In this document: positions 20,186 to 26,944 of the stretch, piece after piece
Layout: the number at the start of each line of letters is the position of its first letter
Position numbering within the stretch: position 1 is the stretch's first letter
Assembly: GCA_026414705.1 (NCBI GenBank)
Contig: JAOAIM010000008.1
Coordinates: forward strand, 11,533-47,581
Source of the DNA: Verrucomicrobiia bacterium
Lineage (GTDB): Bacteria; Verrucomicrobiota; Verrucomicrobiia; Limisphaerales; JAOAIM01
Direction of reading: 5' to 3'
DNA length: 36,049 nt
The notes under the pieces: generated by a model
What the model saw: only the letters and a program-made list of their open reading frames with translations
Database searches by the model: none
Told to the model about the DNA's origin: nothing
Made by a program: the position numbers and the translations under genes

Positions 20186-22114
20186 TCACGCGCAACGGCG
20201 TGCGGGTTTGGTGGCGCGGAGCAGCATGCTCTGGCGCGCGGGTCGTTTGCGCGCAGCCGCAGCGCGGCAGGCGCGGGCGGTGCTGGCAGCGGGGGCGGCT
20301 TCGACGATAACCGAGTTTCGGCCCGCGCGGCCCGGATACACACCATCTTCGCGGTCGCCGAGCAGGCCGCCGTAAAGGGCTTCAACAAATGACGGCGCGT
20401 CGGCGACGGCTTTGAGGGTGCGATTGATCTGTTCGACGAGTTGTTCGGTCCATTCTTTCACGCGCGCGCTGGGGGCGATGTCGGTCTGGCCGAAGAAGCG
20501 GAAAGTTTCGGCGATGCCGTCGAGGGCGGAGGCGCGGGCGGCGGCGGTGATGGGGCCGCGCGAGAAGGCTTCGTCGGTCGAGGCGACGGTGACGGCGTCC
20601 ACGCCCAGCGAGGCGCACAGGGCGGCGTGGAGGGCGGTGGTGGCGGCGGAGCGAACTTTTTCCTCGTCGTGGGTCATGAAGCCGATGGGTTCACCGGGCC
20701 AGATGGGGAAATCGGCGACGGCCTGGAGGGCGCGGATTTTGGCGCAGTTGTAGTCCACGTAGTTCTGCTCCATCCAGCCCTGAACGAGGATGTGCGGGCC
20801 GTGGCACAGGAGCGGTTTGAGGATGGGTTTGGCGCCGAGGCGGCGGCCGAGTTGGGCCATGATCAACATGCCGGCGAAGGCCTTGTGCGGCGGCACGCCG
20901 GCGAGTTCCTCGTTGGTGGGGATGTCGAAGGGCATTCCGAATCGCGCGGCCAGGCGCACGGCTTCGACGCCGTCCACGGTGAGCCGGGCGGGGTCGGTGC
21001 CGCCGCAAAGCGAGCCGTAGGGGATGTTGATCTTGGTCAGGTCGGCGCCGAGATAGGCGGCGAGCACGACGATTTCGGGCGTGTTGAGGCCGCGATGGGC
21101 GCGCACGCTCCAGAGCGTGGCACGGTCGAGGGAGCGTTTGATGAGGGCGAGGTTGGCGTAGGTGACGGGTGTGCCGTCTTCGGCGTTGGTGAGGTAGCCG
21201 TCGAGCAGGCCCTCAGTGCGCGCGCCCCAGGCCGGGTCAAAGTGCAGCACTCCGTCGGCACCGCGGCTTTCGGCAACCTTGATGTGCAGGCCGTCCATCA
21301 TCGGGCAACCGGTGCCGTATTGGATGAACACGAGCGGTTGCTTGCGATCATGCTGGAGGACGCGCGGGTGGAACTGTTGTTGGGCCTGTTCGATGCGCCG
21401 GAAGTAGGCGGCGATTTCGTCCTGGGACAGTTGCCGGACGGTGGGTGGGCAGATGTTCTTCTGGAAGAAGTCCACCACGACCGGGTCGCAAAGTGCGAGG
21501 TATTCGCGGGTGAACGGCAACGCGGTGTAATCCTCGACCGAGCCTTTGACCTCGCGGAGTTGGGCCTCGGTAATGCGGGCGCGGCGGATGCCGGGGGAGG
21601 TTTTGCCCTCGGTCCATTCGAGGATGTTGTCCACGATGCGGTCGAGGTAACGGCGCGTTTCGGCGAGCTTGACGCGGTAATCGTGGCGGAAGGGGAAGGC
21701 GGGTTTGTGTTTGACCGGGTGCGTGACGTGGCGGGCCAGCTCCGGATTGCGTTCGATGAGGGCGTGGATTTCCTCGATGGTCGTGTGGGGGCCGTAGCCG
21801 CCCTCGAAGCCGAGGCGTTTGGCCAGTTCGTCGGTCACGGCCATGCCGCCAATGGCGACGCGGATTTTGCCGAAGACGCCCTGGCGTGTGAGCACGTCGC
21901 GCACGCGCTGGAAAAGCTGCTCGACGCCGTAGCCGACGGTGCGCCCGATGAAGATCATGTCCACCTGCTCGCGCAGGGCGGCCTCGCCGATTTCCTCCAC
22001 CGTGATGTCCGGGGGCAGGAGCACGCAGGTGTAACCGAGGGCTTCGAGCCGACGGCGGATGAGCTTGAGTCCCGCGTCGTGCACCGGGTCGAGGGGAGCG
22101 AGCAGGATTTTCAT
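20186..22114 (-). CDS. Cobalamin-binding protein fused to a lysine-5,6-aminomutase-like TIM barrel
   Basis: A 642-residue putative B12-dependent mutase. Residues 1-135 form a B12-binding Rossmann domain with PVHDAG (His12 as presumed cobalt ligand) and GGMAVTDELAKRLGFEGGYGP, which recalls the KamE subunit. Residues about 235-610 form a barrel resembling KamD (PLVFIQYGTG, ARTEGLLDGY, and a C-terminal region ending VEALYGGLLGD). In KamE the PLP-binding lysine is 11 residues after the ligand histidine (His133, Lys144); here that position is Leu23. The last 35 residues are basic and variable. The start at 22114 overlaps the 82-residue gene by four bases (ATGA). The reaction is unknown: a carbon-skeleton or amino-group shift is expected from the fold. 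Confidence 0.72.
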   Translation of the reverse strand: MKILLAPLDPVHDAGLKLIRRRLEALGYTCVLLPPDITVEEIGEAALREQVDMIFIGRTVGYGVEQLFQRVRDVLTRQGVFGKIRVAIGGMAVTDELAKRLGFEGGYGPHTTIEEIHALIERNPELARHVTHPVKHKPAFPFRHDYRVKLAETRRYLDRIVDNILEWTEGKTSPGIRRARITEAQLREVKGSVEDYTALPFTREYLALCDPVVVDFFQKNICPPTVRQLSQDEIAAYFRRIEQAQQQFHPRVLQHDRKQPLVFIQYGTGCPMMDGLHIKVAESRGADGVLHFDPAWGARTEGLLDGYLTNAEDGTPVTYANLALIKRSLDRATLWSVRAHRGLNTPEIVVLAAYLGADLTKINIPYGSLCGGTDPARLTVDGVEAVRLAARFGMPFDIPTNEELAGVPPHKAFAGMLIMAQLGRRLGAKPILKPLLCHGPHILVQGWMEQNYVDYNCAKIRALQAVADFPIWPGEPIGFMTHDEEKVRSAATTALHAALCASLGVDAVTVASTDEAFSRGPITAAARASALDGIAETFRFFGQTDIAPSARVKEWTEQLVEQINRTLKAVADAPSFVEALYGGLLGDREDGVYPGRAGRNSVIVEAAPAASTARACRAAAARKRPARQSMLLRATKPARRCA

Positions 22115-22359
22115 GGGCGCAGCCAGGTGTAACGGTCGCCGGGTTTGTTGACGTAACCGCGCGCGCGGAAGTGCGCGCCCGGCCCGTTGAAGTCCAGGGA
22201 CACGATCACGTGCCGGTCGAAGCCCATTGCGGCCATGAGTTGGCCGATGACCTCGCGCGCCTCGCGTTCGCTCTCGCACAGCACGAAGCTTTCCACGTCC
22301 ACCGCGTCCACGATGCGGTCGCGGGGGTTGACCGGGGCGGTTTCAGGCGACGCCGGCAT
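22111..22359 (-). CDS. 82-residue protein of unknown function in the B12 cluster
   Basis: A small acidic-to-neutral protein that I do not recognise. It has no membrane segment or cysteine cluster (one Cys at about residue 28). The pattern VESFVLCESEREAREVIGQL followed by HVIVSLDFNGPGAHFRARGY suggests a compact alpha/beta fold. It overlaps the PLP-enzyme gene by 17 bases at its 5' end and the B12 gene by four bases at its 3' end, so translation of all three is coupled and roughly equal amounts of protein are likely. By position it could be a small subunit or chaperone of the mutase; it does not look like OraS of ornithine aminomutase as I recall it. Confidence 0.75.
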   Translation of the reverse strand: MPASPETAPVNPRDRIVDAVDVESFVLCESEREAREVIGQLMAAMGFDRHVIVSLDFNGPGAHFRARGYVNKPGDRYTWLRP

Positions 22360-23803
22360 GTTTGCAGGTGATGTTGATCAGACCCACCAACGCCCGAATT
22401 ATCAACCGCGTTTCGGTTTCGAGCAAGTGGCCGTCCGGGTCGAGCGTGCCCAGGCCGGGCGAAATGAAAATGTTCGCGTCGTAGGCGATGGTCGGGATGA
22501 TGCCCATTTGCGCCATGCCGCTCTGGAAGAGGTTTGTGCCCGCATACATGTCCTCGATGGTGAAGATGGGGATGCCGGGGCGGTCGGCCTTCCAGGTGTT
22601 CTCGTAATTGATCTCGATGGCGAGGGAATTGAGGCTTTTGCAGATGCGCAGGTCGGGTTGGAAATGTTGGGGCAGGGCGCGAAACTCCTCCTGCACGATG
22701 GCGAACAGCCGGTCCAGCGGCGCGGTCATCATCTGCGGGCGATCGCGCAAGATTTTCAGCGCGGCAATCAGGCCCACGAGCGCCTCCTTGCCCGGATCGT
22801 TGGTGACGTAGGCCGCCTTGCCGTAGGAAAAGCCCGCCCCGGAGCGATCGGAGTGATAGCCCAGCGCGCGGCGAATCGGCACAAGCACGTCCTCGCGTCC
22901 GATGATCAACCCCACGGTCGGCGCGCCGGCGGCCTTGTCCATCGAATACACCATCACGTCGGCGCCGAGTTTGCGGGGGTCGGCGCCGATGAAGGGCACG
23001 CCCCAGGCGTTGTCCACGATGTAGGGCACGCCGTAATCGCGCGCGAGCCGGGCCAGGCCCTTTTGCAGCAGCGGCGTGCCGTCGGCGTCGCGCTCGCCGT
23101 ATCCGTAGCCGGGCGTGTCGTAGCCCAGGGAGGTGACCGCGGTCAGGAACGGCGCGTGACGGGCGGCGGTTTGTTCGAGGCGGGCGAGGGTTTCCGCCGC
23201 GTCCACGCCGCCCAGCAGCACGGCGGGATGTTGTTTGATGCCGTGGATTTCGTAGCGTGCGCCTTCCATGGGCACGAACACGGCGTCGGTGTTTTCAAGG
23301 CGTTTGCCCGAAAAGCCCAGTTCGCCCGCCGTCACGCCCCGGTCGGCGAACAAATCTTTGAACCGCGGCGGAAAGGGGCGTCCGTAACCGCCCTGGTGAT
23401 GGAGATGGCGCTCCAGCGGCGCGAGGTAACGGGCGCGATAGCTCGGGCCGCGCCCGGCAAGCGGCGGGGTCACCAGCGTGTCGAAGCTCACCCACAACGC
23501 CGCTTCGCAGGTGTTGATCGGCGCGGCGTCGAAACCGTCCCCATAGACGTCTTTGACCAGTTCGCGGATTTCCTCCACGAGGAATTTGTTTTCGATGACC
23601 TTGCGCGAGGCGGTCTCGATGGCGCGAGCGACCTCGGCGCTCAGGAGCGCGTGGCAACTGGACACCGCGCCGGTCAGGCCGATGTTGCCGCGCAAGGCGG
23701 CGGGCAGGCCGATTTCGTCGGCGAACTTTTTGGCCTCGGCGTAGATGGCCGGGGCGCTCTTGTGCAATTGCTTGTAGAACTGGAAGCGGTATTTCGGCGG
23801 CAT
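22343..23803 (-). CDS. Fold-type I PLP-dependent enzyme, SelA-like
   Basis: A 486-residue PLP enzyme. The cofactor aspartate is Asp264 in YIVDNAWG and the Schiff-base lysine is Lys290 in YSMDKAAGAPTVG, a pattern close to the SGDK region of SelA-like proteins. TGAVSSCHALLSA (44-56) and YGDGFDAAPINTCEAAL (87-103) would contact the PLP phosphate and substrate. I start it at the ATG at 23803 (MPPKYRFQF); the 16 residues upstream look random. It overlaps the next gene by 17 bases and follows the small unknown gene by 50 bases. No tRNA(Sec), selD or selB lies nearby, so a selenocysteine role is not supported. A racemase, lyase or transaldimination partner for the B12 enzyme is possible. Confidence 0.78.
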   Translation of the reverse strand: MPPKYRFQFYKQLHKSAPAIYAEAKKFADEIGLPAALRGNIGLTGAVSSCHALLSAEVARAIETASRKVIENKFLVEEIRELVKDVYGDGFDAAPINTCEAALWVSFDTLVTPPLAGRGPSYRARYLAPLERHLHHQGGYGRPFPPRFKDLFADRGVTAGELGFSGKRLENTDAVFVPMEGARYEIHGIKQHPAVLLGGVDAAETLARLEQTAARHAPFLTAVTSLGYDTPGYGYGERDADGTPLLQKGLARLARDYGVPYIVDNAWGVPFIGADPRKLGADVMVYSMDKAAGAPTVGLIIGREDVLVPIRRALGYHSDRSGAGFSYGKAAYVTNDPGKEALVGLIAALKILRDRPQMMTAPLDRLFAIVQEEFRALPQHFQPDLRICKSLNSLAIEINYENTWKADRPGIPIFTIEDMYAGTNLFQSGMAQMGIIPTIAYDANIFISPGLGTLDPDGHLLETETRLIIRALVGLINITCKHAGVA

Positions 23804-23853
23804 GGCGTTAACGGTTGGGGCGCGGTTGGCCCATGATCGAATCCCCGGCACGC

Positions 23854-24288
23854 TCAGCGGCGCTCGAACCGGATTTTGCGGCCCGGGGCAAAGTGCAACT
23901 CGCGTCCGGTGCGGCGCTGCGCGACACCGACGATGATGTTGAGGTGATTCGGCTCGTGCGTTTCGTCAAAGCCCAGCACCTTGCCGATCGGTTCGCCGTC
24001 GAGCAGCAACGTCTCGCCCACCAACACGCAGCCTCCGCGCGCGACCTCGAAGAACGCCAGATACGCGATGCGGTCGGCGGTTTGGCCGGGCTGCTTGTCG
24101 GTTTCGTCGGTGGCGATCAACTCATGGATGGAGTGTTGCGGCAGCGCGCGCGAATAGGTGGGCATGAGCTTGAGGCCGCGCGCGTCGTGCATCGAGTCGA
24201 GCACGGTGACGACCTCGCCCTCGACCGGTCGGTTGGCCGCGTAGGTGGCGAGGGTGACGAAGCGCGTGGTGGCGATGGGCGAGGACAT
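23854..24288 (-). CDS. Conserved small protein of unknown function (possibly DUF6917)
   Basis: A 144-residue soluble protein. It shows beta-rich stretches (FVTLATYAANRPVEGEVVTVL, GGCVLVGETLLLDGEPIGKVLGF) and the motif DETHEPNHLNIIV near the C-terminus. I have a weak memory of this pattern as DUF6917, a family without function. A metal site from the cluster of His/Glu/Asp (DETHEPNH) is possible but not shown. It lies 36 bases below the probable lipoprotein and 50 bases above the PLP enzyme on the same strand, so it belongs to the B12 cluster by spacing. Confidence 0.6.
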   Translation of the reverse strand: MSSPIATTRFVTLATYAANRPVEGEVVTVLDSMHDARGLKLMPTYSRALPQHSIHELIATDETDKQPGQTADRIAYLAFFEVARGGCVLVGETLLLDGEPIGKVLGFDETHEPNHLNIIVGVAQRRTGRELHFAPGRKIRFERR

Positions 24289-24696: not shown

Positions 24697-24822
24697 GGCG
24701 TTTTCTTACGCCAACGAACGGGGCGGTGCAACAGCATTCCCGATGTCGGCGCGCGCGTTGGGCGGGAAATGCCTTTGCGGGCGGGGACGCCTTTGCTAAG
24801 TTGGCTTGTGACGAGGGATTCA

Positions 24823-26157
24823 ATGCTGCGCGGGTTCACAATCGTTTTTGCGACTCTGGCGCTGGTGTCGGCGCGCGCGGCGTCGGATTCCGGCGCAGAG
24901 GCGGAGGTGGAGCGGGACGCGACGTCGGCGCGGGCGCCGCAGGTGGGACTGATTCGCATCGAGGGCGCGATCGGGCCGGCGACGGCCAGTTACATTTCGC
25001 GCGCGATTGACCTGTCCGGGGAGCGCGAAGACGAGTGCCTCGTCATTGAGCTCGACACGCCGGGCGGGCTGCTCGATTCGACCAAGGTGATCGTGCAGAA
25101 GTTCCTGGCCTCGAAAGTGCCGGTGGTGGTGTATGTGGCGCCGCCGGGCGCGCACGCGGGCAGCGCCGGGTGTTTCATCACGCTGGCGGCCGACATTGCG
25201 GCCATGGCGCCCACCACCAGCATCGGCGCGGCCCATCCGGTTTCCATCGGCAGCCCCGCCGGCGGCGACGAGAAACCTGACGAGACGATGAAGCAAAAGC
25301 TGGCCAACTTTGCGGCCAGTTACATCGAGACGATCGCGGCCCGGCGCAAGCGCAACGTGGAGTGGGCGCGCTCGGCGGTGAAGGAAAGCGCCGCCATCAG
25401 CGAGGAAAAGGCGCTGGAGCTCAACGTCATTGACCTCATTGCCAAAGACCTGCCCGATCTGCTCCGGCAAATTGACGGGCGCGAAATCAATGACAAGACC
25501 CTCCGCACGGCCAACGCGAAGGTGGCGGAGATTCCGATGGTGCTGCGCGAGCGGATTTTTCAAGTGCTCTGGCGGCCGGAGGTGATGTTTTTGCTCATGC
25601 TGATTGCGATCTACGGGATCATCGGCGAGTTGAGCAATCCGGGCGCGATCATTCCCGGTGTGGTGGGCGCGATTGCGTTGATCCTGGCGCTGTATATGGC
25701 GGCGATTCTGCCGGTGAACGTGGCCGGGCTGGCGCTCATCGTTCTGGCAATCCTGCTTTTCATTGCGGACATTTACGCGGCGTCGCACGGCGTGTTGACC
25801 GCCGGGGGCGTCATTGCGTTTCTGCTGGGCGCGGTGATGCTCTTCAACAAGGCCGAGCCGGGTTTTCGCCTGGCCCTCACCTACATCATCCCCGGCGTCG
25901 TGATCACGGCCCTGTTTTTCATCTTCGTGGTCGGCGCGGGTCTGCGGGCGCAACTCTGGCCGGTGCGCGCCGGGCGGGAGGCGATGATTGGCGAGACGGG
26001 GCGGGCGATTTCGCGGATTGACGCCGGCGGCGGAAAAGTGTTTGTGGAGGGCGAGTATTGGAACGCGGTGAGCGACACCCCGATTGAAAGCGGGCAACCG
26101 GTGGAAATCGTCGCCGTCACCGGCCTGTTGTTGAAAGTCAAACCCAAGACAAGCTGA
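24823..26157 (+). CDS. NfeD-family membrane-bound ClpP-class protease
   Basis: A 444-residue protein with a signal peptide (1-19), an extracytoplasmic ClpP-like serine protease domain (about 40-235), four or five membrane helices (about 245-390) and a C-terminal OB-fold NfeD domain (about 395-444: [24 protein letters not shown]). The catalytic serine is probably Ser114 in HAGSAGCF, and the general-base lysine lies in MKQKLANF (about 157-159). Long NfeD proteins of this kind, such as archaeal PH1510, cleave the C-terminus of stomatin. The slipin gene follows after 10 bases, as expected. The ATG at 24823 is preferred; a GTG at 24808 is also possible. Promoters lie in the divergent gap with the lipoprotein gene. 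Confidence 0.9.
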
Positions 26158-26167
26158 GGAGAAGCCT

Positions 26168-26944
26168 ATGCCTGTTCCTGAAACCCTGGTGGGACTGTTT
26201 CGGCTGGCGCCGTGGATCGTCGCCATTTTCATCCTCGCCAGCATCGTGTTGCCGCAGATGGTGCGCATCCTGCGCGAATACGAGCGCGGGGTCATCTTCC
26301 GTCTGGGCAAACTGCTCGGCGCCAAAGGTCCGGGCCTGATCTTCCTCATCCCCCTGGTGGACCGGATGGTGAAAATGGACCTGCGCGTCGTGACCATTGA
26401 CGTGTCCAAGCAGGAGGTCATGACGCGCGACAACGTGCCGGTGACCGTGGACGCGGTGGTGTATTTCCGGGTCATTGACCCGGTCTCCGCCGTCGTGAAG
26501 GTCGAGAACTACTGGAAGGCGACCTCGTTGATCGCGCAAACGACGCTGCGGAGCGTGCTCGGTCAGGCGGAAATGGACGACCTGCTGGCGCACCGCGAAA
26601 AAATCAACCAGACGTTGCAGGAAATCATTGACCGGCAGACCGATCCCTGGGGCGTCAAGGTGACCGCTGTCGAGGTCAAGGATGTGACGTTGCCCGACGG
26701 CATGAAGCGGGCGATGGCCAAACAGGCCGAGGCCGAACGCGAACGCCGCGCCAAGATCGTCAACGCCGAGGGCGAATATCAGGCCGCCGAGAAAATGGTG
26801 CAGGCCGCGCAGATGATCGCCCGCGAACCGATCGCGCTCCAGTTGCGCTTCCTCCAGACGATGCGCGAAATCTCCAGCGAGCACAACACGACCACCTTTG
26901 TGCCCGTGCCGATTGATCTGTTCGCGCCGTTCATGAAGAAGTAG
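26168..26944 (+). CDS. Slipin (SPFH/band 7 protein), NfeD partner
   Basis: A 258-residue membrane-associated protein. One hydrophobic segment at about 13-31 anchors it. The SPFH domain follows, with [41 protein letters not shown] and [12 protein letters not shown]. Then comes the coiled-coil region [26 protein letters not shown] (about 179-205). It is a typical prokaryotic stomatin-like slipin that forms oligomeric membrane scaffolds. The ATG at 26168 is preceded by AGGAGA, one of the few strong ribosome-binding sites in the window. It lies 10 bases after nfeD, so the two form an operon. Substrate relationship with the protease is known in archaea and inferred here. Confidence 0.93.

Follow-up and report, generated by a model that had tools for sequence, protein, structure and literature searches.

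A conserved gene cluster in which a rearranged, probably pyridoxal-phosphate-free relative of the lysine and ornithine aminomutases accompanies a separate pyridoxal-phosphate enzyme

The window analysed here, a stretch of 36,049 nucleotides (nt) from a Verrucomicrobiia bacterium (contig JAOAIM010000008.1 of assembly GCA_026414705.1), contains four co-directional minus-strand genes at positions 20186-24288, which encode a DUF6917 protein, a pyridoxal 5'-phosphate (PLP) enzyme, an 82-residue protein (P82) and a B12-binding protein (MUT). As judged from profile comparisons and a predicted structure, P82 and MUT together are a rearranged lysine 5,6-/ornithine 4,5-aminomutase (KamDE/OraSE), a relationship that had been overlooked in an earlier note on this DNA. 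P82 corresponds in this assignment to the detached dimerisation domain, and MUT to a B12 domain, an OraS-like helix and a KamD-like triosephosphate isomerase (TIM) barrel joined in one chain. On balance, the cluster is slightly favoured to encode a new amino-acid-degrading pathway that has a third KamDE/OraSE-superfamily member at its centre and in which a PLP-free mutase is followed by a PLP lyase. The four genes are as follows:

24288-23854, minus strand: DUF6917 protein (PF21891), 144 amino acids (aa) (open reading frame (ORF); Pfam)
ATG 23806 to 22343, minus strand: fold-type-I PLP enzyme, 487 aa (ORF; Aminotran_5 and TIGR01437 matches; 52-sequence alignment)
22359-22111, minus strand: P82, 82 aa, a putative KamE/OraE-type dimerisation domain as an ORF of its own (PF16554 below cut-off; KamE-domain profile)
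ATG 22114 to 20186, minus strand: MUT, 642 aa (hhalign; AlphaFold2 (AF2) model; Foldseek)

Single-sequence searches with MUT recovered the B12-binding domain only, with a Pfam match (3e-7) slightly under the cut-off. A profile built from 36 MUT homologs found the B12 domain of KamE at 1e-17 and, in a separate match, the KamD barrel at 2.7e-4, and hhalign comparison with KamD, using genes from the same genomes, aligned 317 columns (probability 92, E 6e-7), the KamE B12 domain giving a probability of 98.7. The KamD alignment begins in a MUT helix with a 'TSPGVER' motif, which is common to OraS and the KamD N-terminus; the KTSPGVER segment of MUT was aligned with 'HTTTTIERTVAR' of KamD and 'THTSPSIERS' of OraS. 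When the AF2 model of MUT (predicted local distance difference test (pLDDT) 85, predicted template modelling score (pTM) 0.81) was compared with known structures by Foldseek, the alpha subunit of lysine 5,6-aminomutase ranked first (8t0v_A/1xrs_A, 8e-17), followed by OraE (2.5e-11) and GlmE (6h9e_B, 1.7e-8). His12 of MUT is aligned with the histidine of the DxHxxG motif of KamE and OraE, the aspartate lying at -3 and not at -2. The parts of MUT were delimited as follows:

21740..22114, minus strand: B12-binding domain, residues 1-125 (profile search; hhalign)
22079..22081, minus strand: His12, the presumed lower axial cobalt ligand (D9-P-V-H12-D-A-G15; invariant in 36 of 36 homologs)
21554..21664, minus strand: helical segment resembling OraS and the KamD N-terminus, residues 151-187, with the KTSPGVER motif (hhalign)
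20492..21343, minus strand: TIM barrel, residues 258-541, with D293, A298, R338, H340, R341, K361, N363, Y366, E403, D514 and E515 as marked residues (alignment, hhalign, AF2 model)
20186..20290, minus strand: C-terminal tail, residues 609-642, not conserved, past the last conserved alignment column and of low model confidence (pLDDT <50)

The assignment of P82 follows from the same family. PF16554 (OAM_dimer) is matched by 11 of 39 P82 homologs (best 8.7e-5, under the curated cut-off), and among 4,436 ORFs (39 of them P82) ranked with a KamE dimerisation-domain profile, the first eight were all P82. The domains would thus be laid out as a dimerisation domain on one chain and B12 domain, OraS-like helix and TIM barrel on the other, as compared with a TIM barrel and a dimerisation-B12 chain in Kam, and OraS and a TIM-dimerisation-B12 chain in Ora. 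P82 adjoins MUT in all 38 loci that carry them; the two genes lie at most 60 nt apart in 33 and overlap in 20, and this conserved adjacency and overlap suggest that the two subunits are translated together. Of the features of the known aminomutases, the pair therefore has a B12 domain with an axial histidine, a homologous TIM barrel and a dimerisation domain next to the B12 domain; the Rossmann-domain lysine that forms the PLP imine (K144/K629) and the phosphate/pyridine site are missing. The observed homology, domain make-up and adjacency argue with high confidence that P82-MUT acts as an adenosylcobalamin (AdoCbl) radical mutase of the KamDE/OraSE superfamily.

The PLP site of MUT appears to have been dismantled. 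In lysine 5,6-aminomutase, the contacts of PLP include Lys144 (imine), Ser238 (pyridine nitrogen), Tyr263 (stacking) and Arg184, Arg268 and Ser189 (phosphate), and ornithine 4,5-aminomutase keeps these contacts (PMC3958899). R184, S189, S238, R268 and the lysine pair K144/K629 are invariant across the KamD, KamE and OraE sequences collected here (12 KamD, with the equivalents in six OraE). All 36 MUT homologs carry replacements: Asp, Asn or Cys for R184 (position 293), Ala for S189 (298), Arg for S238 (341) and Gly or Ala for R268 (371), so that the stacking tyrosine (Tyr263, Tyr366 in MUT) is the only residue of the site that has been kept. The loop bearing the PLP lysine is deleted, being four residues shorter than in OraE and nine shorter than in KamE, and the B12 domain of MUT contains no invariant lysine. 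The alignments with OraE and with KamD, which were made independently, yield identical column matches. Because of the deleted loop and the four replacements, it is quite probable that MUT is a PLP-independent AdoCbl mutase. R338, H340, R341, K361, N363 and E403 are invariant at the former site; since the PLP site has been lost and refilled with charged residues (D/N293 among them), a charged substrate is probably bound directly, via its carboxylate and amino groups, by analogy with glutamate mutase. This analogy draws on the fold match and on an apparent likeness between the motifs of MUT and those of GlmE, no match at the sequence level having been found.

Glutamate mutase (GlmES, or MutE/MutS) also combines a TIM barrel with a B12 domain, has no PLP site and carries conserved Arg/His residues on an active-site strand. 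It differs from the system described here in that its B12 domain is a separate subunit (GlmS) rather than fused as in MUT, and the reactivase found with MUT is of the KamB and not the MutL type. Orthology of MUT with GlmE was considered and found no support in the sequence, there being no PF06368 match and a hhalign probability of 3.7; PF06368 was not found in the genome of the window (G000). A second uncharacterised family, in which an N-terminal B12 domain is fused to a barrel with a weak MutE match (PF06368 ~1e-4, below cut-off), was noticed as ORFs of 553-583 aa at L123, L124, L127 and L128, and shares several Bacillota genomes with the cluster.

The cluster is conserved well beyond the window, in many anaerobic bacteria. 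Searching species genomes with the PLP enzyme as query yielded 53 loci (42-81% identity), to which a plasmid search added one; L019, from the same genome as L041, was left out of this count. Among the 54 loci, the PLP enzyme is present in 54, DUF6917 in 43, and P82 and MUT in 38 each, and all four genes occur together in 35, so that the neighbourhood survey proposed in the earlier note has confirmed the set in at least six phyla (Verrucomicrobiota, Bacillota, Ignavibacteriota, Bacteroidota, Spirochaetota and Sumerlaeota, together with unplaced lineages). The four ORFs are real rather than chance, since each has 38-54 homologs by BLAST across this common set and Pfam matches were obtained. The intergenic distances are 47, -17 and -4 nt, the last being an ATGA overlap; the first had been given as 50, and the other two stand. 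However, the PLP-P82 gap ranges from 5 to 3902 nt in the 38 other loci, often with intervening genes, and the -17 overlap recurs in none of them. The argument that the B12 protein and the PLP enzyme are made in equal amounts is thus not supported, and the PLP enzyme need not be stoichiometric, whereas the two-cofactor pathway that was to follow from it is partly supported, in that a protein of the B12 radical-mutase type and a PLP enzyme of its own are paired in a conserved set. An obligate complex of the four proteins is likewise unlikely, because in the Proteobacteria searched DUF6917 and the PLP enzyme are present and no MUT was found in the genome.

Further aspects of the distribution concern the individual genes. 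In six further genomes with the PLP enzyme, MUT lies at a separate genomic place, and in L090 and L042 the DUF6917, PLP and MUT genes are dispersed. The family is rare in the order of the window, where one other genome of 196 has a close homolog of the PLP enzyme. The only homolog of the PLP enzyme in the plasmid collection came from Variovorax, where it is accompanied by RidA and by an ATP-binding cassette (ABC) transporter; the collection contained no MUT. The MUT tree is mostly phylum-wise, with the window clustering with other Verrucomicrobia, and pairwise distances among the four proteins correlate at 0.74-0.84, uncorrected for species phylogeny. KamD- or OraE-type genes occur as separate genes in 18 of the 48 genomes searched, and some Bacillota have KamDE or OraSE as well; therefore, the cluster is a further pathway and not a replacement, and is distinct from Kam and Ora. 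In the metagenome-assembled genome of L019 and L041, which is in the set twice (G171 and G342), the PLP gene is broken by an in-frame TGA beside a stretch that is absent in comparison with homologs, which reflects either a sequencing error or a pseudogene.

The PLP enzyme had been described as SelA-like. The PLP type is borne out, but SelA is only a weak description: the Pfam matches are Aminotran_5 (3.5e-6) and SelA (PF03841, E 0.12, below cut-off), and the SelA family TIGR00474 scores 15.8 bits against a cut-off of 267.9, so that SelA membership was rejected. The best NCBIfam match is TIGR01437 (selA_rel/DgaE), at 4e-7 and 29.2 bits against a cut-off of 385.3, and the best homolog tried reaches 1.7e-11 and 43.6 bits, also below the cut-off. 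By sequence, it appears to be a fold-type-I enzyme distantly related to the DgaE/SelA, Cys/Met-metabolism and aminotransferase class V groups. The alternative start GTG 23851 would add 15 aa, whereas homologs begin at ATG 23806; similarly, GTG 22279 merely opens the longest MUT frame, and ATG 22114 was taken as the MUT start. One residue of the PLP enzyme was located:

22934..22936, minus strand: codon of Lys291 (YSMDK), invariant in 52 sequences

From the fold-type-I pattern, Lys291 is presumed to form the Schiff base with PLP. RidA hydrolyses enamines and imines, and 16 loci from several phyla have a RidA gene close to the PLP gene; it comes directly after the PLP gene at L038 and L040, and most of the Bacillota cases have it between the DUF6917 and PLP genes. 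Because of RidA, and because the ammonia-lyase DgaE is the best NCBIfam match, a lyase role is favoured, and an enamine- or imine-forming lyase is a reasonably likely identity for the PLP enzyme. Ammonia-lyases of the DgaE/SelA type (D-glucosaminate-6-phosphate ammonia lyase) share the fold-type-I PLP architecture and an enamine chemistry that fits RidA; the PLP enzyme differs in being some 120 residues longer, in its pairing with DUF6917 and in falling far below the family cut-offs.

DUF6917 itself passed its Pfam cut-off clearly (PF21891, 3.8e-43, 146.7 against 27 bits) and accompanies the PLP enzyme in 43 of the 54 loci. A 41-homolog alignment contains the invariant residues R37, R47, E56, D108 and H111-x-P113-N114-H115-x-N117, and the FDxTHMPNHxN motif looks catalytic or metal-binding. 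The AF2 model is all-beta (pLDDT 93, pTM 0.88) and found no relatives in the PDB (best E 0.78). A literature search returned no paper on DUF6917 and, for aminomutases with such parts, only work on KamDE/OraSE.

The homology and conservation described above, together with the gene order and the loss of the PLP site, lead us to infer the following direction and reactions. P82 would dimerise, and MUT would hold base-off, His-on cobalamin in its N-terminal Rossmann domain, which would cap the TIM barrel; through a 5'-deoxyadenosyl radical and without PLP, P82-MUT would most likely catalyse a carbon-skeleton or similar 1,2-shift of an amino acid. Ammonia would then probably be eliminated from the rearranged amino acid by the PLP enzyme together with DUF6917 to give an enamine or imine, which, to judge by the neighbouring genes, RidA would hydrolyse to a 2-oxoacid; the latter would be oxidised to an acyl-CoA, probably by the adjacent E1 in some Verrucomicrobia and with 2-methylcitrate enzymes in one genome. 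A KamB-like reactivase would repair the mutase in most lineages, and Proteobacteria with only DUF6917 and the PLP enzyme might take up the lyase substrate directly. The order of mutase before lyase is modelled on the 3-methylaspartate route of glutamate fermentation, which is opened by glutamate mutase and continues with ammonia elimination (PMC8473912); that both act in this order in a single pathway is an evenly balanced proposition. The whole proposal, i.e., a new amino-acid fermentation pathway in at least six phyla, formed by a new AdoCbl radical mutase derived from the two-vitamin aminomutases by permutation of domains and discarding of the PLP site together with a PLP lyase and its new-fold DUF6917 partner, falls a little short of an even chance.

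Neighbouring genes are in part consistent with this proposal. A KamB-type reactivase gene directly follows MUT in most Bacillota, in Ignavibacteria and in others, which supports radical AdoCbl catalysis; the family (NF052386) is matched at 1e-73 in L048, above the cut-off, and KamB was found in 36 of the 48 genomes searched. KamB was not found in the 90%-complete genome of the window (3.94 Mb, 390 contigs), nor in the Verrucomicrobia/UBP4 genomes searched. An E1-type 2-oxoacid dehydrogenase lies near the cluster in three Verrucomicrobia (L042, L041, L090) and was not found in the 90%-complete genome of the window. In L042 (1726-6720), 2-methylcitrate synthase and 2-methylcitrate dehydratase (PrpC/PrpD) and an AceE-like E1 lie between the DUF6917 and PLP genes, hinting at propionyl-CoA as an end product in that genome. 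Neighbours in Bacillota and Anaerolineaceae include FCD-type GntR regulators, an FAD protein of the GidA/FAD_oxidored type and a DctM-like transporter; a catabolic role fits, since GntR/FCD regulators and carboxylate-type and peptide ABC transporters are nearby. A cluster-linked transporter family with no Pfam or NCBIfam name, at best weakly DctM-like, was seen at L043 14547-15959, L062 10997-12442 and L150 14899-16290. A riboswitch scan of 28 loci outside the window gave one lysine and one cobalamin riboswitch and no consistent pattern; the lysine riboswitch (L049 1094-1284, E 3e-37), from Thermovorax, precedes a lysA-like gene and is located ~6 kb upstream of the cluster.

In comparison with characterised operons, the set is indeed unlike those known, as the earlier note had suspected: it differs from the Kam, Ora and glutamate mutase systems, and none of the characterised operons that could be found matches it. 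It shares with KamDE/KamB the TIM-barrel fold, the B12 Rossmann domain, the dimerisation domain, the stacking tyrosine and, in most lineages, the KamB-type P-loop reactivase. It differs in that the dimerisation domain is an ORF of its own, the B12 domain is fused N-terminally to the MUT barrel, the PLP lysine loop and the phosphate/pyridine residues are missing from MUT, a separate PLP lyase-like enzyme is added and KamC (MutS-like) is absent from the cluster. The Bacillota FAD protein was ruled out as KamC by inspection, the third gene of the kam loci read here looking MutS-like. The OraSE operon (ord-ortA-ortB-oraS-oraE), whose mutase belongs to the same superfamily, is mirrored by the Ignavibacteria order of dehydrogenase, small beta protein, PLP enzyme, small subunit and mutase, whereas OraE has the order TIM-dimerisation-B12 and keeps the PLP site, MUT differing in both. 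The operon order also suggested an OrtAB-type thiolase (2-amino-4-oxopentanoate) for DUF6917 and the PLP enzyme, an idea that was dropped at hhalign probabilities of 0.2 (OrtA) and 0.15 (OrtB).

Several points weigh against the proposed pathway. At ~15% identity, the residue mapping of MUT leans on profile alignments, and GlmE was not detected from MUT by sequence (hhalign, 3.7). The occurrence of the PLP enzyme without the mutase in Proteobacteria means that the two reactions are separable, and as neither E1 nor KamB was found in the genome of the window, those steps may differ there. Among the alternatives, it is unlikely that MUT has remained a PLP-dependent 1,2-aminomutase of a diamino acid that binds PLP anew (e.g., through Lys361 or Lys17), with the PLP enzyme an unrelated later step. 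The KamDE-type fold and reactivase, the retained Tyr366, the invariant K361 and K17 (35 of 36 homologs) would fit such an enzyme, and a 1,2-amino shift without PLP is chemically hard in this family (PMC9105233). However, all four PLP contacts are replaced, the lysine loop is shortened relative to both OraE and KamE, and Lys17 is Arg in one homolog. Retention of Tyr366 is not diagnostic of PLP either, because glutamate mutase, which has no PLP, presumably has a tyrosine at the equivalent place. Still less probable, to the point of being very doubtful, is a two-protein aminomutase in which the PLP enzyme, in one complex with MUT, hands a substrate-PLP adduct to the radical site. The occurrence of the four genes together in most loci, the loss by MUT of precisely the site that a partner might supply and a MUT-PLP distance correlation of 0.84 are as such a complex would predict, but this correlation is uncorrected for species phylogeny, PLP-P82 coupling is not conserved, and the PLP enzyme has its own invariant lysine (K291) and occurs without MUT in Proteobacteria.

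The two remaining alternatives, each rather improbable, concern the compounds that are degraded. Diaminopimelate, or another amino acid of the lysine family or derived from peptidoglycan, is suggested by a diaminopimelate-dehydrogenase family member in seven loci (upstream in six Ignavibacteriota/Bacteroidota, beside the PLP gene in one Anaerolineaceae), by LysA just after MUT in three Verrucomicrobia (L039, L042, L090) and by an S66 LD-carboxypeptidase or D-Ala-D-Ala carboxypeptidase in some loci. However, we estimate that these occurrences, when counted as independent events, are perhaps not above background for ~750 neighbouring genes; the dehydrogenase is always the sole copy in its genome and may serve lysine synthesis, and none of these genes adjoin the cluster in the window, so diaminopimelate is a weak lead. 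It might also be that DUF6917-PLP and P82-MUT are separate catabolic modules under a shared regulator, acting on different compounds. The occurrence of DUF6917-PLP alone in Proteobacteria, the six genomes with MUT and PLP apart and the dispersed genes of L090 and L042 agree with this, whereas most genomes, from at least six phyla, have the two halves side by side.

In the window, the cluster is flanked by a methyltransferase and a thioredoxin reductase downstream and a small uncharacterised protein upstream, with no evident link to it. On inspection only, 24769-26157 and 26168-26944 (plus strand) look like an NfeD-type membrane protease and an SPFH/stomatin protein, a common bacterial pair.

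To our knowledge, few AdoCbl-dependent amino-acid isomerases are known. If the proposal is true, P82-MUT would be a new family with the body of a lysine/ornithine aminomutase and no PLP site, which would allow PLP-assisted and PLP-free radical rearrangements to be related to each other. The cluster also gives DUF6917 a testable context, and it probably marks a catabolic pathway, captured by no annotation, in thermophilic Bacillota, Ignavibacteria, Verrucomicrobia and termite-gut spirochaetes.

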